From contig DASXVV010000014.1 in NCBI GenBank assembly GCA_036504035.1, positions 1-64,000 on the forward strand: 64,000 nt of DNA. Reading direction: 5' to 3'. A model generated the notes under the pieces. It had not been told where the DNA came from. It did not search any database and saw only the letters and a program-made list of their open reading frames with translations. The DNA comes from Candidatus Deferrimicrobiaceae bacterium. GTDB lineage: Bacteria > Desulfobacterota > Deferrimicrobia > Deferrimicrobiales > Deferrimicrobiaceae. Of the stretch, positions 10,059-46,106 are shown piece after piece. The position numbers were made by a program, and so were the translations under genes. Within the stretch, counting starts at the first letter, position 1. Each line of letters opens with the position of its first letter.

Positions 10059-13000
10059 ATGAAGCTAAATTCGACCGCCTCCCGCAATTCGATCCTCTTG
10101 ATGGCGTTCTTTTCGGGAATGTGCGCCTTGGCCTACCAGGTTTACTGGCTCAGGGAATTGCGGCTGATCCTCGGCGCGACGATGCCGGCAACCGCGGGCG
10201 TCCTCGCCGTATTCATGGGGGGCCTTGGAATCGGCGGGCTGTTTCTCGGGCCCAGGGCGGACCGATGCCGGAATCCGGTGCGGTTCTACGCGCAACTCGA
10301 ACTGGCCGTCACGGCCGGAGCCGCCTTGTCGCCGATCCTGCTCCATGCCGCAGGGATGGCATACGGGATGTTTTTCGAACGAGGCCTCGAAGGAGGAATC
10401 GCCAGGACGCTGGTCAGGACGGGGCTTGCCACGCTGGTCCTCCTTGCCCCGGCGATTGCGATGGGGGGAACGATCCCCGCTCTCGGTCGGGCGATCGAGG
10501 ACGACGAGGATACCGGCCGCAGAAAATGGAGCCTCCTTTACGGGTTCAATACCCTGGGGGCAATCCTGGGGGCTGCTCTGCCCACCCTTTTTCTGTTCGA
10601 ACGACTCGGAGCGCGATCGACCATCCTCATCGCATGCTCGCTCAACGCCGTCTTGACGGCGGGTGCCTTCTTCCTGTCCCGGAAAATGCCGGCTTGCGAA
10701 CCCGAGCCGGTCGACCTCGAAAAACACGAGCCGACGTCGGCACCGGACGGCATGCCTCGCCTGGCGTGCATCGCCGCGTTCCTGGCCGGTTTTGCCTTCT
10801 TCCTTGCCGAAATCGTCTGGTATCGGATGCTGGCCCCCATCCTGGGCGGTACGACTTATACCTTCGGGCTGATCCTGGTTTCGGTCCTCTTCGGGATCGG
10901 TGCCGGGGGAATTGCCTATTCCTTCCAGCCGATCGGAAAGCGCTCTTCGATCGGCGCGCTGGCGCTGGTCAGCGCGCTGGAAGCACTGGCGCTGGCGTTG
11001 CCGTTTGCAACCGGCGACGGCATTGCGCTGGCGGCGGGCCTTTTCGGCAGCGTCAGGCCGTTCGGATTCATGGCGACGGTCGCAGGATGGATGGTCATCA
11101 TCGCCTTCGTGGTGGTTCCGACGGCTTTCCTGGCGGGCATCCAGTTTCCCCTCCTGCTTGCGGTCGCGGGCCGCGGGCGGGAGCGGGTCGGAACGCACGC
11201 AGGCTGGGTGACCGCCTCGAACACGGCGGGAGCCGTGTCCGGTTCCATCCTCGGAGGCTTCTTCCTGCTTCCGCTTCTTGGCGCATCGAATTGCTGGCGC
11301 CTCGCAGCGGTATCGGTTCTTGCGGTTTGCGGGCTCGCCTGTGCATCGTTTCAGAAAAAAGGCCGTGCCCTGACCGGGGCGACCCTCGCGCTGGCGATGA
11401 TGGCGGGCGGCGCCCTCATTGCCGGGGGGCCGACGTCCGTTTGGCGGCATGGCGGAATCGGAACCGGCAGCTTCCCGACGGCCAACCCGGATGCCCGCGA
11501 AATCCAGCGTTGGGTGCGCAATTCGAAGATTGGCATCCTTCGGCAATTCGAAGGCCGGGAGGCGTCCATCGCCGTCCTGGCCCGAAACGGACTCGCTTTC
11601 ACCGTGAACGGGAAAGTCGACGGCAATGCGATCGGCGATGCGCCGACCCAGGTGATGCTGGGGCTTCTCGGGACCTTGTTCCATCCAGGCACCCCCCGGA
11701 AGGCGCTCGTCATCGGGCTCGGGACCGGAAGCACCGCCGGCTGGATCGCCCGCGTGCCATCGATCGAAAGAGTCGATGTGGCGGAAATCGAGCCGTCCGT
11801 GATCGCGTTCGCCCGAATGTGCTCGGCCGTGAACCAGGATGCGATGAACAATCCGCGGGTGAAGGTGCATGTCGAGGACGGACTGGAATACACGAACGTC
11901 ACGCGAGAAAGATATGACGTCATCGTCTCAGAACCGTCCAATCCGTACCGCGCGGGCATCGCTTCCCTATACACCCGGGAATTTTTCCAGGCGGCAGCCC
12001 GTAAAATGAACGACGGCGGGATCTTCGTCCAGTGGCTTCAAACCTATGACATCGACGCCGGAACGCTCTGGACGGTGCTGTCGACGCTTCGGTCGAGCTT
12101 CCGGCATGTCGAAATCTGGCAGACGGTCGGCGGCGTCGACCTTGCGATCATGGCGACCAATTCGACCCCGATGCGCGATGTGCGCGTATTGAGGGGCAGG
12201 GTAGGGTCGGAGCCTTACCGGGAAGCGCTTTCTGCAACCTGGTACGTGCAGGATCTCGAGGGCGTTCTCGGGAGACATGTCGCAGGGGCGGCACTGGTCG
12301 ATCTCGTGGCCGCAGATGGGCGCTGGCCACCCGATACGGCCGATCGCAACCGGGTCGAGTACGGGTTCGCCCGGTCCGTCATGGCAACGAGGAGCTCCAT
12401 GGTTGCCGGTTTGATCCGGATGGCCCGCGTCCTGAAGGCCGGGAGTCCCGATCTCGGGGGAGACGTCGATCGTGCCCTCGTGGACGCCAACCAGGGATTG
12501 ACGCTGGTTGCCGGGGGCATCGACCCCCTTGGGCTGGTCGACGATCCGGACCGCAACGGTCGATGGGAGGCCGTGGCCGGCTACCTTCGTAATTACGATA
12601 CGGCGGCCTGCCTGGGCAGGTGGCCCGCAGGGAAACAGTCGCCGGCAAACGCGCTGGAACGGATCGTTTTGGCCGACAGTCTTGCCGACCACGGCCGGAA
12701 CGAGGCGCTGGGTTGCCTGGAACCGCTTTTCCCGGACTATCCTGTGGATGCGATGCTGATCAAGGCCAGATTGCTATGGCGTACGGGCAAGCTCGATGCG
12801 GCGTCGAAAACTCTTGCCGGGGCTTTCGAGGCGCTCCGCCGGCGGCCGTGGGCGAACGAGGCGGTGCTTGACCGCGCCCTGCAGGACATGGCTCCGAAAA
12901 TCGGAAAAACGTCCCGGTTGCGGGGGCAGGAAATCGCAAACGCCCTTTCGATGCCCTTTGCCGCTTCCCTGCAGAACACCGACCGGTTGTTCGCGATTGT

Positions 13001-33100: not shown

Positions 33101-33157
33101 TGCCCGGATACGCGTGTGGTGCGTATTTTGACGCTTGTGGTGTACCCAAGGAGCGAC

Positions 33158-36100
33158 ATGACGTTTCGTAGAAAATACGAGTCCTGCCTGGTTTTGTTAC
33201 TGCTCATTCTGCTCGTTTCGGTCGCCGGTGCCATGCCTCCGCCGCGCCCGGGGCTTGTCGACCCCTATACGGGGCGGTACCGCACGACGGGGGGCAGGGT
33301 GCCCGAGGCGCCGGCTTCGGTCCTTTCGCCGCGCCCCTCCGCGGAAGGCGGGAAATTCCCCTATGCGCCGTCGGCGTTGGTGAAATCACGCACCACCGCG
33401 CGTCCGCTCTCCATCAGCGCCATCGGCAACAACTTTCGTCCGCTGGTGCTGATGATCGATTTCGCCGCCCGGCCGGCGTCGCCGTTCGCGACGCGCGCGA
33501 CCCTGGACACGGTGCTGTATACCGGCAGCCAGAGCCTGAAGAACTATTGGGCCGAGGTTTCGCGCGGGTTGTTCACCTTTTCCCCGCTGGCATCGAATGC
33601 CGACATCAATCCCGACGGAAGCGGAACGCTCACATTCGGATGGCTCCGCCCGACGGCCGGCCCGTCCGCCCCCGGGGGGTCCTTCCATTCCACCATCACC
33701 GATCCCCTGGCCATCTCGAATGCGGCCGTCCCCAATGTGCAGCAGCTGCTCCGGGACGCCATCGCCTATCTCGACAACACCACGTTCGCAGGCGTCCCCT
33801 TCGTCGACTACCGCAATCCGGTCGACAACACCGTCTCGGTCATCATCGTGCATTCGGGCTACGGGCAGGAGGACTCAGGCAACACCACCGACCCCTATTC
33901 CCATTCGGCTCCTTTCCCGGTGGATGCCCCGATCAAGACCCGCAACGGTTTCGTGATCGCCGATTACACGCTGGTGCCGTCGCTCCAGTTCTATAACGAT
34001 CTCCTGCAGGCCCGCGACAAGCCGATCGGCGTTGGCGTCATCGCCCACGAAATGGGCCACCTGCTGGGGTTGCCCGATCTCTACCCCACTGCGTCGGGGG
34101 GGCAGGGGGTGATCCAGCGCAACTATTCCGGCGTCGGCGTGTTCGATCTCATGGGGTACGGCCTGTGGGGCAGCCCGCTGTCGGCGGGACGCCTGCCCGG
34201 GTCGACACTCTCCGGGTTTCCGCCGGGCACCGAGTCGCCGTCCCATCTCTCGGCATGGTCCAAGGCCGAGCTCGGCTGGCTCGTTCCCACGATCGTTTCG
34301 CGCACCACGACCGCCGACCTGCTGTTGCCTCCCGCCGAGACGAACCTCGCCGCCTACAAGATCTATCCCAACGGGCCCGGCGACGAATCGCAGTTCTTCC
34401 TCATCGAAAACCGGCAACTGCCCGGCACGACCGGCGCACGCTTCGATGGCGGTCTCCCGGGCAGCGGCATGCTTGTCTGGCGCGTCGACAACGACAAGAT
34501 GGACCTGTGGCGCAATTCCAACCTTTCGGTTCCGTTGCTGCGGACCCAGCCGGTCAACGACGACAACACGGCCTCCTATCCGCATCTCGGCCTCTCGGTG
34601 ATGGAAGCCGACCTGCCCGACGCCGTCGACCCGCTCATTTCCCCCTTCGTCCCCCATCTCGTCCGGTCGTTCCCGGCCGGATCGGTCACGGCCGCGAACG
34701 CCTACTTCTTCGGCTCGGCCGGTGATTTCTTCGGGACAGGCCGCATTTTCGACCGGACGCATCCCGTCCCGGGCGCCGACATGACCAACTCGGCCCCGTG
34801 GTCGCTCAAGCGCTTCCTCGACACGGGCTGGCAGCTCGTCGTCAATTTCTTTTCCAATTCCATCCGGCTGACCGCCGAGTTGCCGTTCTGGAAAAACTTT
34901 ACGGACATCCCGCCCAACAACCCGTCGACCACGCTTCATCAGGTGCTCACCTACGGCTTCGACAACTCGGGCCGCACCTGGATCGGCACGGCCGCCGACG
35001 GTATCTGGGTCTATGGCATCAATACCTGGACTCACCTGGTTCCTGCGCTTTCGAGCCGCGTCCAGGCGATGGCTTACGACGGCGCCTCCAACACGATGTG
35101 GGTGGGAACGAACCAATCCCTCGAACGCGTGCAAACGGGGCGCTTCCTCGCGCCCCCGATCTCGGGCTTCAACGTCAATTCGCTCCTGATCGACCGTCGG
35201 TCGAAGAAATGGATGGTGTCCGGGGGCGGGCTGGCCTTGAGTGCGGTCTACGACACGCCGTCCGAGTTCAACGTCGTGAGCGAAGTCACGTTCCGGCTTA
35301 CGCGCACCGGCGGGTCTACCGGACTGGCGACGGGCGAGTCCATAACCTGCATTGCCCTCGACAACAACGTGATCTCCGTAGACCCGACCGACCCCGTCCC
35401 GTTCAAGGACGTCCTCTATGTGGGCACTTCGCAGGGGCGCATCTTCCGGAACGCGCGCGCCGACAACGGCGCAGTCCTTTTCCCGCTTTACCCCGCCGAC
35501 GGGATCAACGGTCCCTCGTTTTTCACGAGCACGCTCAAGTTCGAAGAAATGCCGATGCCCGCGCTGTCGCCCTCCGCCATCTACGGCATGGCGGTCGACG
35601 GTGCCGGCACCCTGTGGATCTCCACCAACCTGGGCATGCTGCCGTTCGACCGGGGCGAATACCACCAGGCGCCCGGCGTCAGCTTTTTCAACCCCTTCAA
35701 TATGTTCGGTGACAATATCCTCACCAGCCAGCCCGGCTACATCCCCGTCCCTAATCCCCAATTCACCGGCGCCAACATCTTGCCCACCGGAGTCGCGCAC
35801 CAGCAGAACGGGCAGGACCGCGGCATCATCTGGGTGGCCTACGGCGATGGGCGGCCGCAACCTCTCCCGCCGCTGCCCCCGTTCTCCGAGTTGTCCGGCG
35901 GCGGCGCCGAGCGGATCGACGTCGGGGCGATGGCCAACCCGAAGATCCCCCGGGTCGGCACCTGGTACGAGGTGGCCCGCACCCTGTTCACGCTCAACGA
36001 TCAAGTCCCCAAGGGGCCGGGCGTCCTCAAGACGGGTGGGCTGGTCAGCGACCTCATCGGGGCGTTCGGGGACGGCGGATTCAACATCTGGTTCGGCACG

Positions 36101-36841
36101 AAGGATTCGGGCACGTTCCGGTTCGGCTCCGGCGCGGCCATGACGCTCGACCGCGACACATACCTCCAGGAAACCGCGATCGCCACCGTGACCGTCCTCG
36201 ACGAGAACGCCACCGACAATACCCTGTTCGTCACGATCTCCTCGCCGGTCGCAACCGACATCACGGTGCCCGTGACGCGCAATCTCGACAATGTCTATGT
36301 CGGCACTTTCGGCTTCATCCTGGGGGCATCCGACAACGTGTCCGCCATCCGCCGCATCGGCGTCAAAACGCCGTCCACCGACATTCTGGCCTCGTACAAG
36401 CCCGTCACCGGGCCGTCGATCAGTCGGACCGCCAAATGGAAGCCGATCGCTCCCTTCCGGGACACCCTGCTCGTCGGAGGCTGCTTCGTCGCGACGGCCG
36501 CGTACGGCTCCGCCATGGCGCCCGAAGTCGATTCGCTGCGCCGCTTCCGGGACGGCTTCCTGATGACCAACCCGATCGGGCGCTCACTGGTGGCCCTCTA
36601 CTACAAGGCCAGCCCCCCGTTGGCTGACTTCATCGCGCCGCGTCCGGCCCTGCGGGCCATGGCGCGCTTCATGCTGGCCCCGGCCGGCCTGCTGGCCGGG
36701 TTCTGCGCCGGAACCGGCATCGCCGGCAAGCTGGCCGTCCTTCTCTTGATGATTGCTTCCGCGCTCCTGCTCTTCCGCTTCGGGCGGGGGCGGTCGGCGT
36801 GTTTCTCGGAAAACCGTGCCGAAGGTTCGCCCGAACGATGA
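33158..36841 (+). CDS. Secreted M6-type metalloprotease with propeller region and CFI-box C-terminus
   Basis: A 1227-aa protein. A signal peptide (LVLLLLILLVSVAGA) is followed by an M6 peptidase domain with the zinc motif HEMGHLLGLPD (H297, E298, H301, D307). A middle region near residues 600-950 has two-component-regulator-propeller-like repeats (GRTWIGTAADGIWVYG, GTLWISTNLGMLPFDRG). The C-terminal 120 residues begin with GGCFVATAAYGS (Cys1109) and continue into a hydrophobic, Ala-rich stretch, matching the CFI-box-CTERM module seen on exported proteins. The start is the ATG at 33158, with AAGGAG upstream; a frame open from 33116 is rejected. It overlaps the beta-barrel gene by ATGA. The role is probably surface proteolysis or maturation of a neighbouring exported protein. 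Confidence 0.78.
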   Translation: MTFRRKYESCLVLLLLILLVSVAGAMPPPRPGLVDPYTGRYRTTGGRVPEAPASVLSPRPSAEGGKFPYAPSALVKSRTTARPLSISAIGNNFRPLVLMIDFAARPASPFATRATLDTVLYTGSQSLKNYWAEVSRGLFTFSPLASNADINPDGSGTLTFGWLRPTAGPSAPGGSFHSTITDPLAISNAAVPNVQQLLRDAIAYLDNTTFAGVPFVDYRNPVDNTVSVIIVHSGYGQEDSGNTTDPYSHSAPFPVDAPIKTRNGFVIADYTLVPSLQFYNDLLQARDKPIGVGVIAHEMGHLLGLPDLYPTASGGQGVIQRNYSGVGVFDLMGYGLWGSPLSAGRLPGSTLSGFPPGTESPSHLSAWSKAELGWLVPTIVSRTTTADLLLPPAETNLAAYKIYPNGPGDESQFFLIENRQLPGTTGARFDGGLPGSGMLVWRVDNDKMDLWRNSNLSVPLLRTQPVNDDNTASYPHLGLSVMEADLPDAVDPLISPFVPHLVRSFPAGSVTAANAYFFGSAGDFFGTGRIFDRTHPVPGADMTNSAPWSLKRFLDTGWQLVVNFFSNSIRLTAELPFWKNFTDIPPNNPSTTLHQVLTYGFDNSGRTWIGTAADGIWVYGINTWTHLVPALSSRVQAMAYDGASNTMWVGTNQSLERVQTGRFLAPPISGFNVNSLLIDRRSKKWMVSGGGLALSAVYDTPSEFNVVSEVTFRLTRTGGSTGLATGESITCIALDNNVISVDPTDPVPFKDVLYVGTSQGRIFRNARADNGAVLFPLYPADGINGPSFFTSTLKFEEMPMPALSPSAIYGMAVDGAGTLWISTNLGMLPFDRGEYHQAPGVSFFNPFNMFGDNILTSQPGYIPVPNPQFTGANILPTGVAHQQNGQDRGIIWVAYGDGRPQPLPPLPPFSELSGGGAERIDVGAMANPKIPRVGTWYEVARTLFTLNDQVPKGPGVLKTGGLVSDLIGAFGDGGFNIWFGTKDSGTFRFGSGAAMTLDRDTYLQETAIATVTVLDENATDNTLFVTISSPVATDITVPVTRNLDNVYVGTFGFILGASDNVSAIRRIGVKTPSTDILASYKPVTGPSISRTAKWKPIAPFRDTLLVGGCFVATAAYGSAMAPEVDSLRRFRDGFLMTNPIGRSLVALYYKASPPLADFIAPRPALRAMARFMLAPAGLLAGFCAGTGIAGKLAVLLLMIASALLLFRFGRGRSACFSENRAEGSPER

Positions 36842-38730
36842 GGAGGTTTTTCGCAATCGTGGTCGCCTTGTCCTCAGCGGCCGTCCTGCTTTTCCCCGGC
36901 CCGGGCGGCCTTGCGTTCGCGAAGGGGCTCGTCAGCGGCTCCTATACGTTGAGCTGGAGCCAGGACGTCCAGAACCAGGCTACTTACAAGGATTCACGCA
37001 CCTTCAAGCAAACCCTGGAGACGAAATATTCGGGTTTTTTGTCCCCCCTTGTCGAAAACGAAATCTCGCTCAAGATCGACTACGACAAGTCTCCCGACGC
37101 GGCGACCAAGGTCAGCGTCTACCCTACGATCACGCTGGCCTACAAGGGCTCGTATTGGAATGCAGGCACGAAGCGTACGGTCACCCGGGAGCCCGGATCC
37201 AACCAGAAAGTCTCCGATTCCCACTTCGTCGAGGTTTTCTACCAGCCGGTCCGGTTCGGCATGCCTGACTTCAAGGGGAAATACACGGCCGATTTCGATG
37301 CGCAATCCGGTACTACAGACAAGTTCAAACAGGGTGTCACGCTGTCGACGAACTACCAGCCGGCCGAATGGTTCACCTTGAAGGGGGATTACGCGTGGAC
37401 TGCCGATGACGAGCGGTTTCGCAAGGATCCGCCGGATCCGACGCTGACGCCCGTCACCAAGGAAGAGAAGTACAGCATCACCGCCGGCGTGCGCCATTTC
37501 ATTTCCCAAAACCTGAAGATCAACACCGAATGGAAGTCCGAGTTCAGCCGATCATCGACCTTTTTCGATAACGGCGTGACCAAGCTCGATTCCAACAAGG
37601 AAGACCAGGACCATACCTGGAAGAACACGTTGGCATTCCGCCCGTTCGCCGACACCTCGATCGACGGCACGTTCGATTTCGATCTCAAGCAGACGATGCT
37701 TCCAAAGATCGAGGCCGGACAGGTGGCGCAGGAAGAGCATACGATCACCTACAACAGCTCCGTCAAGGCCGTCCAGAAGGTCGGGAAGCCGATCGAGCTC
37801 CGGGGCGAATACACGCGGGCGAGGACCGATGTCCGGCACAACCTGTCCCCCAACGTCAACAACGACGACGGGTGGAGCATCGAGGCCAAGGGCGATTTCT
37901 CCAAGCAGTTGCAACTGGATGCCAAGTATACGCTGCACAATATCGTGGCCGCCAACCCGGGCGATATCTCCAAAGTGCCTAACCGCACCGGGAATGTCAT
38001 CAAGTCCGCAAGCTGGACCGGAGACCTCCTTCCCATATGGAAGCCCGCCGCGACCTACGACTTGACCGATTCCTACGACTTCACCGTCCAGCGCGGGAAA
38101 TATCTGAAGACCTCCGAGACGAAATACGGGCTCAAGGGGCCCGTTGAGTTCAAGTACGTCGACCTTTCCCTAACGCCGACGTACGACATCACCATCAAGA
38201 ACGATTACTCCAATGTCGATCCCGCTGCCCAGGAGACGATCACGACCCGCGATTTCAAGCTCAGGGTCGCCAAGACCTTGTTGCTGACCCGAACGATCGA
38301 GTTCAAGGTCGATCACACGTACGGCCGCAAGGCCGAGTATGGCCACGTCGATCCCTTGCTGAACAACATCAACCGCTCCGATACATCCAGTGCGAATCTC
38401 CAGATCAAGGACATTGTTCCCAATTATGTCGGCGGGCTCGACATCACCCGATCGGCGACCGACACGAGCGGCGATGCCGACCTGCCCGACGTCACGGAAA
38501 ATTTCAATCTCAAGATCGATTACAAGTTCGAGAAGTTCGGCTGGAACGCCAGCTTCAAGTACGACCGAAATCTGAGGTTCGACAAGTTCAACAAGTGGAC
38601 TTTCGACTGGAAGGCGTCCTGGACGGTGTCAAACTGGGATTTGTCTTTGACCTACAACCAGTCCAAGACGCTTTCCCTGTTGCTCGATGAAAGCTACAGG
38701 GTAGGCATCGATTTCAAGTACAATTTTTAA
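36838..38730 (+). CDS. Outer-membrane beta-barrel protein
   Basis: A 630-aa protein with a signal peptide (IVVALSSAAVLLFPGPGGLAFA) and then many amphipathic strands of about ten residues (YTLSWSQDV, FTLKGDYAWTADDE, FKYVDLSLTPTYDITIKNDY). It ends in FKYNF, the terminal Phe typical of BAM-assembled barrels. No Cys or TPR was seen. About 30 strands could be present, but I could not count them reliably. It is translationally coupled to the M6 protease and followed 27 bases later by the CsgG/TolB-like lipoprotein. It may be the porin of a surface complex with the downstream proteins, which is inference. Confidence 0.75.
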   Translation: MRRFFAIVVALSSAAVLLFPGPGGLAFAKGLVSGSYTLSWSQDVQNQATYKDSRTFKQTLETKYSGFLSPLVENEISLKIDYDKSPDAATKVSVYPTITLAYKGSYWNAGTKRTVTREPGSNQKVSDSHFVEVFYQPVRFGMPDFKGKYTADFDAQSGTTDKFKQGVTLSTNYQPAEWFTLKGDYAWTADDERFRKDPPDPTLTPVTKEEKYSITAGVRHFISQNLKINTEWKSEFSRSSTFFDNGVTKLDSNKEDQDHTWKNTLAFRPFADTSIDGTFDFDLKQTMLPKIEAGQVAQEEHTITYNSSVKAVQKVGKPIELRGEYTRARTDVRHNLSPNVNNDDGWSIEAKGDFSKQLQLDAKYTLHNIVAANPGDISKVPNRTGNVIKSASWTGDLLPIWKPAATYDLTDSYDFTVQRGKYLKTSETKYGLKGPVEFKYVDLSLTPTYDITIKNDYSNVDPAAQETITTRDFKLRVAKTLLLTRTIEFKVDHTYGRKAEYGHVDPLLNNINRSDTSSANLQIKDIVPNYVGGLDITRSATDTSGDADLPDVTENFNLKIDYKFEKFGWNASFKYDRNLRFDKFNKWTFDWKASWTVSNWDLSLTYNQSKTLSLLLDESYRVGIDFKYNF

Positions 38731-38757
38731 TCCAGCCAGATGGGTAAGGAGGAGCTG

Positions 38758-39975
38758 ATGAGTACCACGAGAACGATCGGTCTGGGTCTTGCGTTGATTC
38801 TGCTCGCGGCGGGCTGTTCCCGCCCGATGCTGCGTGACAACGCTTTGCCCTCCAGGACCAAAGACCAGTACACGAAGATCAAGCGGGTCGCGGTTTTCCC
38901 GTTTGAGAACTACTCGGACACCAAGGAGGCCGAACGCTCGATCGAGGCGCTCCTCATTCCCAACCTGCGAGCCGAGGGCATTTTCGACGAGGTCGAAGAT
39001 ACCCGGTTCGTCCGCGACTCCATGAAGAAGCTCAAGATTACCTCGACGGAAAGCCTCGAAAAGGAAGTTCTCAAGAAGCTGGGCGACGAAATGAACGTCC
39101 AGGGAATCCTCTACGGGAAGCTCCTCCTCTATGGGAAAGGCAAGGAAAAAGATGCCGCTTCCCAGGTGACGATGGATATGGCGATGGTCGATCCCTCCAC
39201 CGGCAGCGTCCTCTGGGTCGGCAACGTGAGCGCGTACGGCGGGCTTACGGTCGGGAAGGTGTTCGGCGTCACGGAAGGCAAGACCGACATCGAGGTTGCC
39301 CGCGAGGCCGTCCGGTATCTCAGCGATTCCATGTCGACGCATGTCGTCCGGGCACGAGAGCGCGAAAAGAAGGGGATCATCGCCGACCTCAAGAACGAGG
39401 CGCTGAAGGAAGAAACCCGCCTCAAGGCGCTCAAGGGCGAAACCGGCAAGATCCAGGAGCAGCTCGACAAGGCCAAGGCCGAAGCCAAGGGAATCAAGGA
39501 CAGCGCGGTCAAGGAAGTCGAGTCGCAAAAATCCGACATGGAGCTCCAGAAGGCGGCGATCGAGGCCGAAAAGGCCAAGACCCAGCAGCAGCAGCAGGAG
39601 ATCGACCAGGAAAAGCTCAAGGTCGAGATGGAAAAGAAAAAGATCACCGAAGAGCAGAAGAAGCTCGAGGACATGCGCAAGGAAGCCGATGATGCGCGCA
39701 AGAAGGCCGAAGAGGCCGCTGCGGCGGCCAAGGCGGCAGCAGCGGCCCCTGCAGCGGCCCCTGCTCCGGCCCCTGCTCCGGCCCCTGCTCCTGAATCCCC
39801 TGCGCCGGCACCGTCGCCGGCGCCCGAAGGCGCACCGGCTGCCCCTGCGGCCGAGCCGGCTCCCGCGCCTGCGCCTGCCGTCGAACCGGCTCCGACGCCC
39901 GCTCCTGCGGCCGAACCGGCCCCGACGCCTGCTCCTGCGGCCGAACCGGCCCCCGCGGAGTCTCCGGCGAAATAA
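38758..39975 (+). CDS. CsgG/TolB-like lipoprotein with coiled coil and Ala/Pro-rich tail
   Basis: A 405-aa lipoprotein with lipobox LAAGC (Cys20). Residues 40-200 (IKRVAVFPFENYSDTKEAE, LVSRT-like DTRFVRDSM, VQGILYGKLLLYGKG) match the CsgG/GNA1162/TolB-like fold used by outer-membrane-associated lipoproteins. Residues 205-320 form a long charged coiled coil (EKKKITEEQKKLEDMRKEAD). Residues 325-405 are almost only Ala, Pro and Glu, in repeats of PAPAPAAEPAPTP. GGTAAGGAGG-like GTAAGGAGGAG sits before the ATG at 38758. It ends at a strong hairpin. It may stiffen or bridge the periplasm to the outer membrane, as TolB/Pal-type proteins do. Confidence 0.75.
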   Translation: MSTTRTIGLGLALILLAAGCSRPMLRDNALPSRTKDQYTKIKRVAVFPFENYSDTKEAERSIEALLIPNLRAEGIFDEVEDTRFVRDSMKKLKITSTESLEKEVLKKLGDEMNVQGILYGKLLLYGKGKEKDAASQVTMDMAMVDPSTGSVLWVGNVSAYGGLTVGKVFGVTEGKTDIEVAREAVRYLSDSMSTHVVRAREREKKGIIADLKNEALKEETRLKALKGETGKIQEQLDKAKAEAKGIKDSAVKEVESQKSDMELQKAAIEAEKAKTQQQQQEIDQEKLKVEMEKKKITEEQKKLEDMRKEADDARKKAEEAAAAAKAAAAAPAAAPAPAPAPAPAPESPAPAPSPAPEGAPAAPAAEPAPAPAPAVEPAPTPAPAAEPAPTPAPAAEPAPAESPAK

Positions 39976-40052: not shown

Positions 40053-40081
40053 TCATTTCGAAAGACGAGGGGAGAAAGACG

Positions 40082-41155
40082 TTGAAAAGAATCATCCACG
40101 GGTTGATGCTGGGTGCCGTCGCATCCATGCTGTTCATAGGCTGTTCGTCCAAGAGCGCCGTCAACGAAACCGTCGCCACGGTCGACGGCAAGAGCATCAC
40201 GGTCATGGAGGTCAGGGAGGCTACCGGTATCCCCGGAGGGCTCGTGCCGGCTTCCACGCTCGACAAGGACCAGAAGAGGAAATTGATCGGGCAGATCATC
40301 GAGACGCGACTTTTGGCGCGGGAGGCACGCGCGATCGGCCTCGACAATACGCAGGAATTCAAGGATGCGATCCGCTTCGGTGAATCGGGGGTGGCCGTCA
40401 AGGGGCTGTTCCGTAAAGAACTCGATGCCAAGGGCCAGAAGGTCGGAAGCGAAATCGATGCCGCAGTCAAGGATCTGATGGCCAAGGACAAGAGCCTAAA
40501 AGCCTCCGATGCCCGCGCACGGGCGTCGCAGTCCGTTTTTTCGGCCAAGCTTTCCCAGATCCAGACCGAAATCACGGCCGCCGCGCGCAAGGCGTTTCCC
40601 GAAAAGGTCGATACTGCCCTGATCGCCCGGATCGCCAAGGGAGAGGACGTTCCCGACAACGCGGCGGTGGGTCAGGTCGGATCCGAGGCGATGACGTATG
40701 GCGACGCCAAGGTTCTGATCTCCAAGGCGACCATGGGAGCCAAGCATGCGGGCAAGGATTTCCTGAGGGACGAAAAAGCGCTCGCCGGCGCGATCAGCCA
40801 GGAATTGGGCGATCGCTCACTTGTTGCCTATGCCCGGCAGCAGGGCGGCGACAAGGGCCCCTGGCTCGAGCTTGACCGCACGCTTTACGAAAATTCCGTG
40901 CTTCTGGGGCTTCTGGCGGAAAAGGTGATATTCAAGGACCTGGGAGTCTCCGAAAAGGAGATCGAGAATACTTACAACGAACACAAGAACATGTTCGTCA
41001 AGGACGGGAAGCTCGTACCTCTCGCCGCAGTGCGCGACCAGATCGTCGCTTTCCTGCAGGACCAGAAGAAGCGGAAGGCCGTCGAAGCGTTCGTCGCCCC
41101 CTTGAAGGGAAAGGCGAAGATATCGATCGTCGAATCCATGCTCGAGAAGGTATGA
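40082..41155 (+). CDS. SurA-N-like periplasmic chaperone lipoprotein
   Basis: A 357-aa protein starting at TTG 40082, chosen because GAGGGGAG lies eight bases before it. Lipobox FIGC (Cys21) anchors it. NETVATVDGKSITVMEVREATG is the SurA/PrsA N-terminal start, followed by long helices (LIGQIIETRLLAREARAIG) and the typical end AAVRDQIVAFLQDQKKRKAVEAFV. A parvulin rotamase domain is not evident, so it is likely a chaperone of the SurA_N type rather than an active isomerase. A longer open frame from 39689 overlaps the Ala/Pro tail gene in another frame and is rejected. It could help fold the barrel or the cytochrome. Confidence 0.75.
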   Translation: MKRIIHGLMLGAVASMLFIGCSSKSAVNETVATVDGKSITVMEVREATGIPGGLVPASTLDKDQKRKLIGQIIETRLLAREARAIGLDNTQEFKDAIRFGESGVAVKGLFRKELDAKGQKVGSEIDAAVKDLMAKDKSLKASDARARASQSVFSAKLSQIQTEITAAARKAFPEKVDTALIARIAKGEDVPDNAAVGQVGSEAMTYGDAKVLISKATMGAKHAGKDFLRDEKALAGAISQELGDRSLVAYARQQGGDKGPWLELDRTLYENSVLLGLLAEKVIFKDLGVSEKEIENTYNEHKNMFVKDGKLVPLAAVRDQIVAFLQDQKKRKAVEAFVAPLKGKAKISIVESMLEKV

Positions 41156-41215: not shown

Positions 41216-42157
41216 GTGAGGAGATCGATCGTAACGCCGCTAGCTCTGGCGCTGATGCTTGTCTTGTCCGGAGTGGCCTTTTCCGAACCGTCGTTCGACG
41301 CCGAGGACGCCTGGGGGCGCTTCGGGATCGGTCGCGAAGCCTTCGACCACCCGGTCGACATGGTTGCGGATCGCGACGAAAACATGTACATCGTCGACCA
41401 GGGCAACAATCGTATCCAGGTACTCGACCGGCGCGGCCGGTTCATTCGCGAGTGGGGAGGGCGCGGATTCGGGAAGGGCTCCTTCGACGCCCCCACGGCC
41501 ATTGCGATCGACAAGTCGGCAGGCACTTTGTACGTCGTCGATACGGGCAACAACCGAATCCAGAAATTCGATCTCACAGGGAGATACATCCTCGAAATCG
41601 GGCGCCTCGGATCGGGGCGCGGCGAATTCAACAAGCCGTCCGACATCGCCCTTGACCGTAAAGGGAATCTGTTTGTCGTCGATCCCGGCAACAACCGGAT
41701 CCAGAGATTCGATTCGACGGGAGCGTTCATCGAGGAGTGGGGCCGTTACGCCCAGCAAAGGAAGGGAACCGACCTCGACAAGCCGGTATCGCTGTCCATT
41801 TCCGACGACGGGTTCGGCTTTCTCTTTGTGACGACAGGCGACTGCCTGATTCGAAAATACGACCTGGATGGCCTGTCCGTGGCTTCCTGGCCGATGTTCC
41901 AGAAGGGGGAGGGGCTCGTTTGCGGGCCCACCCGAATTCGGATTGAACCGCGTCGGTATACAGTGTATATTGCCGATACCATCAACGACCGGCTGATCCT
42001 TTTCGACCGGGCGGGAGAACTTCTGGGCGAGCTCCGAAAGGGGCAATCTCCATTCAAGAAGCCCACGAGTATCTTTATAAACGACGTTTTCGGGGAAGAT
42101 GTTCTGGTGTCCGACACCGGAAACAACCTCATCCAAAAGGTCAGGAGGAGAAAATAG
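41216..42157 (+). CDS. Periplasmic NHL-repeat beta-propeller protein
   Basis: A 313-aa protein with a signal peptide (LALALMLVLSGVAFS) and at least five NHL repeats. Repeats read PVDMVADRDENMYIVDQGNNRIQVL, so VDQGNNRIQ, VDTGNNRIQKF, VDPGNNRIQRF and VSDTGNNLIQKV mark successive blades. Such propellers usually bind proteins or ligands. The GTG at 41216 has AAAGGAGGG upstream. It lies two bases before the thioredoxin gene and is probably part of the cytochrome maturation or electron-transfer operon. It has no catalytic residues that I could recognise. Confidence 0.78.
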   Translation: MRRSIVTPLALALMLVLSGVAFSEPSFDAEDAWGRFGIGREAFDHPVDMVADRDENMYIVDQGNNRIQVLDRRGRFIREWGGRGFGKGSFDAPTAIAIDKSAGTLYVVDTGNNRIQKFDLTGRYILEIGRLGSGRGEFNKPSDIALDRKGNLFVVDPGNNRIQRFDSTGAFIEEWGRYAQQRKGTDLDKPVSLSISDDGFGFLFVTTGDCLIRKYDLDGLSVASWPMFQKGEGLVCGPTRIRIEPRRYTVYIADTINDRLILFDRAGELLGELRKGQSPFKKPTSIFINDVFGEDVLVSDTGNNLIQKVRRRK

Positions 42158-42159
42158 GC

Positions 42160-42747
42160 ATGCGCTTTCCTGCGAAGTCCGGGTTGCTCCTCGTCGTGGC
42201 GGCAGCAGTTCTAGCCTCCTTCGGCGGAGTCTGTCTCGCTGAAGAAAAGGCCATGACGCCGCTGGGCGGTGGAATTCCGATGATCGAAGGCATCAAAATG
42301 CTAGACGTGGGCGCCCCGGCTCCCGATTTCACGCTCAAGGACACCAAGGGAGAAGTTTTCCATCTTGCGGAACTCAAGGGCAAGAAGCCGGTTGTCATCG
42401 TCTTCTGGTCCATCTTCTGCGAACCGTGCCGCTTCGAGATGCCCGTCATCCAGAAGCTGGCCGACAAATACAAGGCCGGGGGGCTCGAGGTGATCTCGGT
42501 CGTGCTCGACGGCGAACCGCTTAAGAGCAGCATCGATGGCTTCATCAAGCAGGAAAACTACACGATTCGAACGCTGATCGACGAGCTCGACGCGAAAGAG
42601 ATGTTCAAGGTCGCCGATCCATACGGCGTCGGCGGCACGCCGACCATTTACATCATCGACCGCTCGGGAGTCGTTTCCATGGCCCGGTCCGGCCGAATCA
42701 AGGAAGAAGAGCTCGAAAAAGCGATCTTGTCTGTCACCAAGAAGTGA
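42160..42747 (+). CDS. TlpA/ResA-like periplasmic thioredoxin
   Basis: A 195-aa protein with a signal peptide (about 27 residues). GAPAPDFTLKDTKG begins the TlpA/AhpC-like redoxin fold. The active site is C87-EP-C90 within FWSIFCEPC, and GVGGTPTIYIIDRSG carries the cis-Pro loop. ResA/TlpA proteins reduce apocytochrome c cysteines before haem attachment. Its position immediately before a thioredoxin/ten-haem fusion makes this role plausible. It starts two bases after the NHL gene, with GGAGG upstream. Confidence 0.82.
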   Translation: MRFPAKSGLLLVVAAAVLASFGGVCLAEEKAMTPLGGGIPMIEGIKMLDVGAPAPDFTLKDTKGEVFHLAELKGKKPVVIVFWSIFCEPCRFEMPVIQKLADKYKAGGLEVISVVLDGEPLKSSIDGFIKQENYTIRTLIDELDAKEMFKVADPYGVGGTPTIYIIDRSGVVSMARSGRIKEEELEKAILSVTKK

Positions 42748-42754
42748 GGACGTA

Positions 42755-44350
42755 ATGCGGGCCCTTGCGTTCGCGGCCCTTCTCGGCGTCGCGCTTTTCT
42801 TTCTGCCGGGACAGGTCCTGGCGGCCAACCTTGGCGACAAGGCGGTCGCCATCAAGGGCGAGGGGCTCGATGGCGCCCGGGTTGATCTTGGCGCCTATAT
42901 CGGCAAGAAGGTCGTCCTCCTCAAGTTCGGGTCGATCTATTGCTCGACGTGCGTTTCCTCGCTCGAGGATGTGGCCCGGATCCAGAAGAAATTCAAGCCG
43001 GCCGACCTGCAGATCGTGGGCGTCAATCTCGACGTCTACGGCCTAACGCGCGTCAAGCGCTTCTACCGCGGCTACAGTTCCATCATCAAATACCCGTTCA
43101 TCATCGACGATAAGCTGGCGGCCTCCCGGCCGTTCGACATCCAGTCCATTCCAGCGCACATCGTCATCGACAAGGAAGGCTTCATCCGCTACATGTCGAC
43201 GGGCGCTTCCCCCGAAGACCTGAAGACGCTCGAAGACGTCATCAGCCGGGTCATCAAGGGAGAGACCGGCATCGAGAAGCTGATGAAAGAGCTTCCGCTC
43301 CAGGTATTCCTCCCGTCCAACTTCACCAAGACCTACCAGGAGTCTGTGTACATCGTCGGCACCTCCAAGCCGGGCAGCAAGCTGTCGTTGACGCTCAATG
43401 GCGGTTCCAAGCAGAACATCACCTCGATGCGCGACCTGTTCTACATCCGAACTCCGCTTTCGCTCGGATCGAACTATATCGAGGTTCAGGTGGTCGACGA
43501 GTACGGTGGCAAGGTCAACCAGGGAATTGTCATTTTCCGGGAGCCCAAGGTCGGAGCGGGGATCGAGTCGCCTTTTCCTCTCTACTATTTCCATACCGAA
43601 AAGAACGAGGCACCGTGCAAGAAATGCCACGACCTGAACCCGCCCGAGTCGGGGGCCCAGGGATTCGCGACGGCCACGCAATTCTGCCTCGGTTGCCACA
43701 AGGAACTGACCAGCCAGAAGTTCGTGCATGGCCCCATCCCCGTCGGGGGGTGCGCGCCCTGCCACAACTTCTCGAGCCGCCCCCATCGGTACGAACCGAT
43801 GGCTTCCGGACAAGATCTCTGTTTCAAATGCCACGAGGACAAGCGCAAGGAACTGGTCAAGACGTTCCTGCACGGACCAATGTCGGCGGGCCTTTGCGTG
43901 ATCTGTCACAGTCCGCATTCCTCCAACGAGAAGTTCACGCTTCGCCGTTATGTCGGTGACTTGTGCCTGATGTGCCACGAGAGTCTCAAGTCGGTTTCGC
44001 TCCGCAAGGTCGTCCATAAGCCGGTCAACGACGGGAATTGCACCGGTTGCCACGATGCGCACTCCTCGTTGCGCAATGACGGGTTCCTCAAACTTCCTGC
44101 CAACGATCTTTGCCTGTCGTGCCACCAGAACGTGACCAAGATGACCCACACCCACCCGTGGGGCGTTCCCCCCAAGTCCGACCGCCCCGTCAAGCTCGAC
44201 AAGGAAGGGAACCTGGCTTGCAGTTCCTGCCACATCCCGCATGCTTCGGACGAGCCAAAACTCATGCTCAAGGGCGGCTGCAACCTGTGCCATCCGCCGC
44301 AAGACAAAAATACGGAACAGCTACCAACACCCATACCCGCGGGAGGATAA
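42755..44350 (+). CDS. Thioredoxin-like / Ig-like / ten-haem cytochrome c fusion
   Basis: A 531-aa exported protein. After a signal peptide come a redoxin domain (residues 25-170) with C63-ST-C66 and the cis-Pro segment SIPAHIVID. A beta-rich linker (about 180-265) resembles an Ig-like domain. The last 260 residues hold ten CxxCH haem-binding motifs, the first at C288 (CKKCH) and the last at C509 (CNLCH), as in doubled-CXXCH cytochromes. Ten bound haems are expected, with His ligands supplied by other histidines. The CSTC site may act on cysteines of the same chain or of a partner. It is co-transcribed with the TlpA protein. I know of no well-characterised protein with exactly this order. Confidence 0.83.
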   Translation: MRALAFAALLGVALFFLPGQVLAANLGDKAVAIKGEGLDGARVDLGAYIGKKVVLLKFGSIYCSTCVSSLEDVARIQKKFKPADLQIVGVNLDVYGLTRVKRFYRGYSSIIKYPFIIDDKLAASRPFDIQSIPAHIVIDKEGFIRYMSTGASPEDLKTLEDVISRVIKGETGIEKLMKELPLQVFLPSNFTKTYQESVYIVGTSKPGSKLSLTLNGGSKQNITSMRDLFYIRTPLSLGSNYIEVQVVDEYGGKVNQGIVIFREPKVGAGIESPFPLYYFHTEKNEAPCKKCHDLNPPESGAQGFATATQFCLGCHKELTSQKFVHGPIPVGGCAPCHNFSSRPHRYEPMASGQDLCFKCHEDKRKELVKTFLHGPMSAGLCVICHSPHSSNEKFTLRRYVGDLCLMCHESLKSVSLRKVVHKPVNDGNCTGCHDAHSSLRNDGFLKLPANDLCLSCHQNVTKMTHTHPWGVPPKSDRPVKLDKEGNLACSSCHIPHASDEPKLMLKGGCNLCHPPQDKNTEQLPTPIPAGG

Positions 44351-44357
44351 GCACGCG

Positions 44358-46106
44358 GTGAAAAAAATCTACGGTTCCCTCGGTTTCAAACTCATCCTGG
44401 CCTCGATGTTCCTGGCGCTGGTCACAATCAGCCTCGGCGGCGTCATGGTCTATAAAATCAGCGAAGACGCCATCAAGGTCGACGCACAGAAAACCGCACG
44501 CGACCTGGCCCGCGAGATGAGCTCCTTCAAGTCCGAGGGATCCGAGGACAACGGCAAGCTGGTCGACGCATTGACCTCGATGAAGGTCGACAAGTTCGGC
44601 GCCGCCTGGGTAATGGATCGCAACGGCTTTCTGATCGCGCACATGGATCCGAAATTCCGGAACATGGTCGAGGCGCAGACCTACATCGGCGATACCTACG
44701 TCAATCTCAACGTGGCCGAACAGCCGATCCAGCAGCTCGGCGAAAAGAATCTGGTCCACAAGGCCAAGCTCCAGGAGTTGCTCGAAAAGTTCGACGGCGG
44801 GTTCGGAACCTACACCTTCCTGGGCGACAACAAGATCATCGCGTTCCGCGTCATCAAGGAAAAAGGGTGGTTGGTCGCCGTAGACCAACCGATCTCAACC
44901 GCCTTTTCCGAACTCGACCGGATCAAGCGCATGATCATGATCACTTGTGTGGCGATGGCCGTGCTCGTCATGGCGTTTACCTGGTTCGCCATGCGCATCA
45001 TCATCCGCCCCTACTACAAAGAACAGGAAGAATCCAACCTCCGACTCGAAATGATGAACCAGGAGCTCATGGCGTCACGAAAGAAACTCGAGAAAGCAGG
45101 CAACAGTCTCACGCGGCTTTACGATCTCAGCATTGCGATGCAGTACTCCGGCTTCCTCGAATCTCACTTGCCGCTGGTGCTGGGCGTCGCCCAGGAACGG
45201 TTCGACGTCGACCGCATCCTGCTCATGATGCCCGATGAAGAAGGCAAGTTGCTGCGTTGCCGTGCCTCGGTCGGCAACGTGTTCGAATCCGAAGAGAAGA
45301 TCGCCGTGCCCCTGTCGGCCCAGGGGGGGGCGATGGCCCGCGTATTCATGACCAAACAGACCCTCCATTTCGACGGCGCGACATCGCTGCCCGCCGACCT
45401 TCGACTTGTCCCCCCGCATTCCCAGATCCGCTCCCTCCGGTCGAAGGCCTTCGCGGTGTTCCCGCTCGCGTCCAAGGACAGGGTCATCGGGGTCCTGGGG
45501 GTCGATAACAAGATGAGCCGCCGCCCGTTGACGGGCGAAGACGTTCAGGCGATCGAAGACTTCGCCTACAAGATGGCTTCCCTCATCGAAAACACGATTC
45601 AGGTCCAAAGCATCCGGAAGGCCGCGCAAGAGATGGAAAATCGCGATCGGCTGACCGGGCTGTTCCACATTCGACACGTCAAGGGGCTGGCGGACGAATT
45701 CATCGCGTCCGCCGTTCGGGACCATGCGCCCTTTGCCGCCGGTCTCCTTTACCTTGCCAACTTCAAGGAATACAACGAGCTCAACGGATATCAGCGCGGA
45801 GATTTCGTCCTCCAGAAGACGGCGGAGCTGCTCAAGGGGCAGGAGGTCATGGGCGTGGTCCCCGCCCGGTGCTTCGGCGCGACTTTCCTGGCGCTCTTCC
45901 CCGGAAAGAACCGCGAGCAGGGTCAGTACCTCGTCGACCAGTTCATGAAGGAGCTCGGGCAGTTCGCCTTCTACGGCGAAAAGCGGCTTTCCGAGGGCCG
46001 TCTGGTCTTCAGGACTTCGGTGCTCGAGTACAACCGGGACTCCGGCCAGACCTTCGACGAATTCTTCGGTTCGCTCGAGACGCTCGAAAACGACGGTCAG
46101 GGCTGA
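44358..46106 (+). CDS. Membrane sensor: dCache-like, GAF, degenerate GGDEF
   Basis: A 582-aa protein starting at GTG 44358. Membrane segments lie at about 11-33 and 192-216. Between them is a periplasmic PAS/dCache-like sensor (AAWVMDRNGFLIAHMD, and GWLVAVDQP). A GAF domain (about 250-410, ending FAVFPLASKDRVIGVLGVDN) and a GGDEF-like domain (from RDRLTGLFHIRH) follow. The catalytic GGDEF signature is replaced by ARCFGATF (503-510), so cyclic-di-GMP synthesis is unlikely. It may bind GTP or act as a protein-interaction module. It is seven bases after the cytochrome gene, so it may sense redox or ligand state of that system. Confidence 0.8.
   Translation: MKKIYGSLGFKLILASMFLALVTISLGGVMVYKISEDAIKVDAQKTARDLAREMSSFKSEGSEDNGKLVDALTSMKVDKFGAAWVMDRNGFLIAHMDPKFRNMVEAQTYIGDTYVNLNVAEQPIQQLGEKNLVHKAKLQELLEKFDGGFGTYTFLGDNKIIAFRVIKEKGWLVAVDQPISTAFSELDRIKRMIMITCVAMAVLVMAFTWFAMRIIIRPYYKEQEESNLRLEMMNQELMASRKKLEKAGNSLTRLYDLSIAMQYSGFLESHLPLVLGVAQERFDVDRILLMMPDEEGKLLRCRASVGNVFESEEKIAVPLSAQGGAMARVFMTKQTLHFDGATSLPADLRLVPPHSQIRSLRSKAFAVFPLASKDRVIGVLGVDNKMSRRPLTGEDVQAIEDFAYKMASLIENTIQVQSIRKAAQEMENRDRLTGLFHIRHVKGLADEFIASAVRDHAPFAAGLLYLANFKEYNELNGYQRGDFVLQKTAELLKGQEVMGVVPARCFGATFLALFPGKNREQGQYLVDQFMKELGQFAFYGEKRLSEGRLVFRTSVLEYNRDSGQTFDEFFGSLETLENDGQG

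Follow-up and report, generated by a model that had tools for sequence, protein, structure and literature searches.

The 64-kb stretch of DNA analysed here (the window) contains an operon in which genes for a large beta-barrel, a lipoprotein, a PPIase-like lipoprotein, an NHL propeller, a TlpA protein with a CEPC active site, a fusion of a redoxin to a multihaem cytochrome, and a sensor follow one another in this order. The genes and the parts of the fusion are the following:

36838..38730, + strand: outer-membrane beta-barrel of 630 aa with about 30 predicted strands and without cysteine (model pLDDT 84.7; best Foldseek match 6r2q_B)
38740..39975, + strand: GNA1162-like lipoprotein with an Ala/Pro-rich tail (weak Pfam match; lipobox Cys in 14/14; syntenic)
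40070..41155, + strand: PPIase/SurA-like lipoprotein, start codon uncertain (weak Pfam matches SurA_N_3 and Rotamase_2; syntenic in most close relatives)
41216..42157, + strand: NHL beta-propeller protein, exported (Pfam NHL, 9.7e-22; syntenic)
42160..42747, + strand: TlpA/ResA-like thiol-disulfide oxidoreductase, active site FWSIFCEPCxxE (active-site cysteines in 19/19 rows)
42755..44350, + strand: redoxin-Ig-decahaem fusion, 531 aa (Pfam domains; architecture shared by 28 distinct homologues)
42755..42826, + strand: Sec-type signal peptide of the fusion, approximately residues 1-24 (from sequence; helix 2-15 in the model; putative cleavage site)
42833..43255, + strand: redoxin domain, residues 27-167 (PF08534/PF00578; structural match to DsbE/ResA)
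42941..42952, + strand: CSTC motif, Cys63-Cys66 (CxxC in 26/28 distinct homologues)
43301..43540, + strand: Ig-like beta-sandwich, residues 183-262 (weak Pfam match; strands in the model)
43616..44293, + strand: decahaem region with ten CxxCH motifs, residues 288-513 (TIGR01905 and TIGR03508; nearest PDB sequence 6r2q_A; nine invariant non-CxxCH histidines)
44358..46106, + strand: membrane sensor with a weak Cache-like match, GAF and a degenerate GGDEF (Pfam)

The fusion is encoded in one uninterrupted frame; its ATG lies 7 bases beyond the TlpA stop codon. A preliminary description of this locus reported a redoxin domain with CSTC and ten CxxCH motifs in a single chain, and the open reading frame, the Pfam matches (Redoxin at residues 27-163, 1.6e-16; Paired_CXXCH_1, 1e-36) and the structure model all agree with it. 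The CxxCH motifs start at residues 288, 311, 333, 356, 381, 404, 429, 453, 489 and 509; in 20,000 shuffles of the protein, the motif occurred 0.035 times on average and twice at most. Cys63 and Cys66 are the sole cysteines outside CxxCH, and the signal peptide has no lipobox cysteine.

The predicted structure shows a thioredoxin fold at about residues 27-167 and a beta-sandwich at 183-262. The latter coincides with a weak match to the Ig-like Pfam family Glucodextran_B (182-262), in line with the Ig-like middle domain proposed earlier. Over the haem region the model is of low confidence, with pLDDT mostly below 50 over large parts. The redoxin domain superimposes on DsbE and ResA structures with Z scores of 20-22.6 and an rmsd of 1.4-2.0 over 137-141 residues, and its cis-proline, Pro133, is invariant. 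It lacks the glutamate of ResA (CSTCVSS instead of CEPCxxE) and the fusion falls below the NCBIfam ResA cut-off (52.7 of 170 bits); the domain is therefore termed ResA-like rather than ResA. A peroxiredoxin identity was rejected: although both the Redoxin and AhpC-TSA profiles match, CxxC is placed as in ResA/DsbE, which are also the best structural matches. Judged from its sequence, the fusion is a decahaem cytochrome, predicted to be exported, with an N-terminal ResA-like thiol domain and an Ig-like spacer.

In relatives aligned with the sensor, the GGDEF motif is replaced by [FYL]G[AS]xx. A cysteine just ahead of this degenerate motif and another in the GAF part (44358-46106) are kept in 13/14. 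Just upstream of the barrel gene, a large protein with a peptidase M6 match is encoded at 33116-36841, and similar open reading frames occupy this place in three relatives (L038, L042, L044). Further upstream, about eight long open reading frames of 550-1070 aa (344-25015), several with like N-terminal stretches (...YDDPQYV..., ...YDDHFQV...), resemble related membrane proteins of glycosyltransferase type, the type being judged by eye.

Distribution of the fusion and its operon

The architecture search suggested in the preliminary description recovered 28 distinct fusion sequences. Ten CxxCH motifs are present in 27/28, and the redoxin CxxC in 26/28 (13 CSTC, 11 CSSC and 2 CTTC), two sequences having no CxxC. 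A further full-length copy, with 40% identity to the fusion of the window, lies on a different contig of the host genome. Among 59 relatives searched, full-length fusions were found in the host's own family, in a second family of its class and in one more distant family. A scan of species genomes added full-length loci labelled Deltaproteobacteria, Deferrisomatales and Rokuibacteriota, and an even draw across the phylum contained the fusion in 20/395 genomes, from seven families. Within the host phylum, the fusion therefore occurs in seven families or more, and it is also present in MAGs labelled otherwise. In the plasmid collection, the best matches span only the redoxin part and lie in unrelated proteins.

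Since 28 distinct sequences, drawn from numerous independent assemblies, have the architecture intact, and one genome has it twice at full length, a frame or assembly error that fused two genes is ruled out in practice, and we consider its probability negligible. Nothing was found to support such an artefact; a relative is itself broken by a frameshift (MAG locus L055, QIEJ01000064.1, 3078-4600), which splits the fusion between its Ig and haem parts through either sequencing error or decay.

The gene order of the operon is kept in close relatives. Distant relatives keep the lipoprotein, the NHL protein, TlpA and mostly the sensor, and in several a barrel open reading frame also lies upstream, so that the operon is conserved across at least seven families. 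In a search of 24 genomes of the family, the NHL gene was found in all 8 genomes that carry the fusion and nowhere else; the sensor was present in these 8 and, in addition, on a truncated contig from one incomplete genome. Such co-occurrence indicates a unit that is gained or lost together. One relative (G018, locus L151, G018:C26:8000-24136) has a remnant of the operon at 10596-12916, consisting of the PPIase-like gene and a diverged TlpA beside the flanking EngB. This TlpA has CEPC without the glutamate, and no fusion is present.

The thiol site, its probable TlpA partner and paralogues without CxxC

The active-site face of the fusion redoxin (residues 58-66 and 132-134) has a mean majority identity of 88%, compared with 57% elsewhere in the domain, a level of conservation reached by 0 of 20,000 random draws. 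The preliminary description had noted the TlpA gene directly ahead of the fusion, and this link is stronger than was claimed. A CEPC TlpA lies immediately upstream of every CxxC-bearing fusion found (a count that takes in L144, whose TlpA lies in overlapping open frames), and the same partner adjoins the fusion in at least 26 distinct relatives. CEPCxxE is kept in 19/19 aligned TlpA rows, its two cysteines being the only conserved ones of the protein, which scores 95 of 170 bits against the NCBIfam ResA model. The other exported proteins of the operon contain few conserved cysteines. The barrel of the window has none, the two lipoproteins (the PPIase-like one included) have that of the lipobox only, and half of the NHL proteins carry two. 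Within the operon, this leaves the fusion as the evident thiol partner or substrate of TlpA, which would act on CSTC, on the haem-site cysteines, or on both. That TlpA serves the fusion exclusively was an idea we dropped, since G018 keeps its TlpA remnant without a fusion.

Paralogues of the fusion within the genus have STNG (L002/L116) or SLVS (L117) in place of CxxC; they lie outside the operon and have no adjacent TlpA. A tree built from the Ig-haem part places them, on a long branch, within the clade of their own family (100/99), and this nested position indicates that the loss of CxxC is derived. Their redoxin part has drifted most: identity there is 30-33%, as opposed to 46-47% in the haem part. 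The two intact CxxC-less paralogues keep 10/10 CxxCH motifs and all nine conserved extra histidines, and from these motifs they would be expected to bear ten haems. Haem attachment therefore seems not to need CxxC.

These paralogues bear directly on the earlier suggestion of a self-maturing cytochrome, which is weakened. A ResA-like fold and 20 haem-site cysteines do share one chain, but copies deprived of CxxC retain every haem site, and the same genome encodes many multihaem cytochromes that have no redoxin domain. Obligate maturation in cis, in which no haem would be loaded without the built-in redoxin, is accordingly a very improbable explanation.

Having lost CxxC, the paralogues are also without TlpA, and CxxC and TlpA thus behave as one unit. 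The presence of TlpA before all CxxC copies and the joint loss of both in the paralogues indicate that the fusion thiols probably form a TlpA-coupled relay, running from TlpA to the fusion CxxC. Of the whole interpretation, this relay has the strongest support.

Other redoxins were compared with that of the fusion. A stand-alone tandem pair, CASC then CGPC, is encoded at G000:C11:38067-39133 (locus L003/L123) and also occurs in the relative G014. The CGPC redoxin clusters with the TlpA clade (89/66), and no other stand-alone redoxin is closer to the operon TlpA. The CASC redoxin has the top score against the fusion profile among the stand-alone redoxins of this genome, and the unrooted tree shows no sister relation between it and the fusion. 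At about 74-81 kb of the same contig (locus L121, 5007-12385), four redoxins with differing CxxC motifs are interspersed among cytochromes of 5, 7 and 8 haems; an NHL-like open reading frame and a large lipoprotein-like one come next. In this genome, redoxins are linked to cytochromes more widely. Elsewhere, redoxin-TPR proteins that lack CxxC precede Ig-octahaem cytochromes. They were considered as a split ancestor of the fusion redoxin and rejected, as they form a separate clade of their own in the redoxin tree; this order of redoxin and Ig-octahaem genes, alike to that of the fusion, may be convergent. The position of such CxxC-less proteins beside cytochromes makes a thiol-free role of these folds possible.

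In another reading, the redoxin domain would bind TlpA, the barrel or the NHL protein, and CxxC would act as a disulfide switch that controls docking or activity, without a catalytic function. The retention of the redoxin fold without CxxC, both in the paralogues and in the redoxin-TPR proteins next to multihaem cytochromes, argues for it, as does the sensor encoded in the operon. Copies within the operon, however, conserve the whole active-site face and the cis-proline as an enzyme does, and their partner is an enzyme-type CEPC redoxin. We regard a switch or docking module as rather unlikely.

The haem part, the barrel and possible roles of the thiols

The operon context goes beyond what was seen in the preliminary description and points to an outer-membrane conduit. 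The DmsE/MtrA profile TIGR03508 and TIGR01905 match all 20 aligned fusion members, the fusion of the window reaching 78.7 of 192.2 bits against TIGR03508, below the cut-off and in a partial alignment (91-222 of 258). Searched by sequence against the PDB, the haem part best matches 6r2q_A, from an entry that is by its title an Mtr complex; we take chain A to be MtrA, though the molecule name in the file differs. For the barrel, the top Foldseek match is 6r2q_B, the MtrB chain of the same complex (E 1.3e-10, TM only 0.40). A second aligner did not place 6r2q_B among the best 50 matches listed. The barrel sequence has no match in the PDB up to E 10, and no MtrB or PioB family was found in the Pfam or NCBIfam matches of 10 barrel members up to E 1. 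A firm MtrB assignment was dropped because there is no family profile match and a single weak fold match.

The likeness to porin-cytochrome systems is probable, the 6r2q matches falling short of membership of the Mtr families. A haem part like MtrA/DmsE and a barrel weakly like MtrB make it likely that the operon encodes an outer-membrane electron conduit of porin-cytochrome type, of which the fusion would be the periplasmic wire. Against this stand the single weak fold match on which the MtrB likeness depends and the want of a second haem gene, no other CxxCH-rich open reading frame being present within the 64 kb. The haem region (43616-44293) has nine, not ten, invariant non-CxxCH histidines, and one haem may have its distal position filled by a different ligand or by a histidine that is not conserved.

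As the best explanation we tentatively propose that the fusion is a conduit wire and that CxxC and TlpA form a relay serving the assembly or upkeep of this cytochrome, a statement which, taken as a whole, falls somewhat short of an even chance. The upstream ResA-like TlpA would exchange disulfides with the fusion CxxC and hold it reduced. The redoxin/TlpA pair would in turn keep the 20 haem-site cysteines reduced, or re-pair wrongly joined ones. This thiol care would act during threading of the chain and its placement next to the barrel, in concert with the PPIase-like and NHL proteins. Assembly as the purpose is the least certain of these steps. In System II, ResA reduces the haem-site disulfide of apocytochromes and is dispensable if the oxidising enzymes are absent (PMC3884852). 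This job of ResA, and the CcsA-type cytochrome-c assembly genes present in the genome (alongside two weak CcdA-like matches), argue for this explanation. Several observations weigh against it: paralogues devoid of CxxC preserve their ten CxxCH and extra histidines, the fusion redoxin has no ResA glutamate, the TlpA remnant of G018 suggests that TlpA may have other work, and CxxC-less redoxin-TPR proteins stand beside cytochromes elsewhere.

The redoxin disulfide/dithiol could also be a point of electron entry into, or exit from, the haem chain, an idea close to the disulfide-driven electron carrier of the preliminary description, which the results neither favour nor contradict. Two directions are conceivable: electrons from TlpA thiols might leave through the conduit, or electrons from the conduit might reduce disulfides. 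In favour of such an exchange, a single chain contains both a thiol site and ten haems, and the two are selected jointly in the operon. No sequence feature indicates contact between thiols and haems, in a region where the model is of low confidence, and we know of no clear redoxin precedent for transfer from a two-electron thiol to a one-electron haem. In Shewanella, most extracellular organic disulfide reduction requires Mtr conduits (PMC10986466), so that conduits and disulfides can meet, as shown for that organism and not for the fusion. Geobacter ExtHIJKL, which combines a porin, a cytochrome and a rhodanese lipoprotein, is a further point in favour, and its authors urge attention to non-cytochrome components (PMC6148476). 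Electron exchange between thiols and haems nevertheless appears unlikely to us. The fuller version, a wired thiol cytochrome whose TlpA-coupled CxxC and decahaem chain would link the periplasmic thiol/disulfide pool to extracellular acceptors or donors through an outer-membrane conduit, is distinctly doubtful.

The paralogues have lost exactly the thiols and therefore offer a ready test of whether thiols take part in building or running an outer-membrane conduit, a question to which natural mutants can seldom be applied.

Comparison with known systems

Like MtrA/DmsE and MtrB, the fusion has ten CxxCH of the doubled-CXXCH type, is predicted to be exported and is encoded with a large outer-membrane barrel. 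It differs by its additional N-terminal redoxin and Ig-like domains and by its score of 79 of 192 bits for DmsE; the barrel stands outside the MtrB families, and no MtrC-like gene occurs in the window. The Uet conduit (undecahaem electron transfer) of Tenderiales and Gallionella comprises a barrel (UetC), a peptidylprolyl isomerase (UetB), NHL proteins (UetHI) and a doubled-CXXCH protein (UetJ) (PMC10734462). Our operon is alike by gene kind only, in having a barrel, a PPIase, an NHL protein and a multihaem doubled-CXXCH cytochrome; it lacks the UetA tetrahaem and the trihaem genes, whereas the listed Uet parts include neither TlpA nor a redoxin fusion. An MtrA-family cytochrome with a non-haem domain is known from the mtrA-DOMON of Group 6 mtr clusters (PMC8805035), with DOMON rather than redoxin and with nine haems. 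ExtHIJKL of Geobacter sulfurreducens likewise unites a porin, a periplasmic cytochrome and a protein of sulfur chemistry in one cluster (PMC6148476), but there the rhodanese lipoprotein is separate, the cytochrome is pentahaem and there is no fusion.

With ResA/CcmG/TlpA, the fusion redoxin shares the fold, the place of CxxC and the cis-proline, and the neighbouring TlpA has the CEPCxxE signature. Unlike them, it has CS[ST]C or CTTC without the glutamate and is joined to the usual type of substrate. The C-terminal domains of DipZ from Mycobacterium tuberculosis, the rank 1 match, also consist of a redoxin followed by a beta-sandwich; they have no haem, and the full-length superposition is poor (rmsd 11). 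Redoxins fused to single-haem cytochrome c domains are known. The preliminary description had asked if the architecture was already well described, and we found no published fusion of a redoxin or thioredoxin to a multihaem cytochrome in the open-access literature searched. The individual parts all belong to known kinds; their combination and the strict pairing with TlpA appear undescribed in that literature. Conduit cytochromes are usually viewed as haem-only wires that are matured by general factors; here, the putative conduit wire bears its own thiol-disulfide domain, and the conserved operon provides it with a dedicated redoxin partner.
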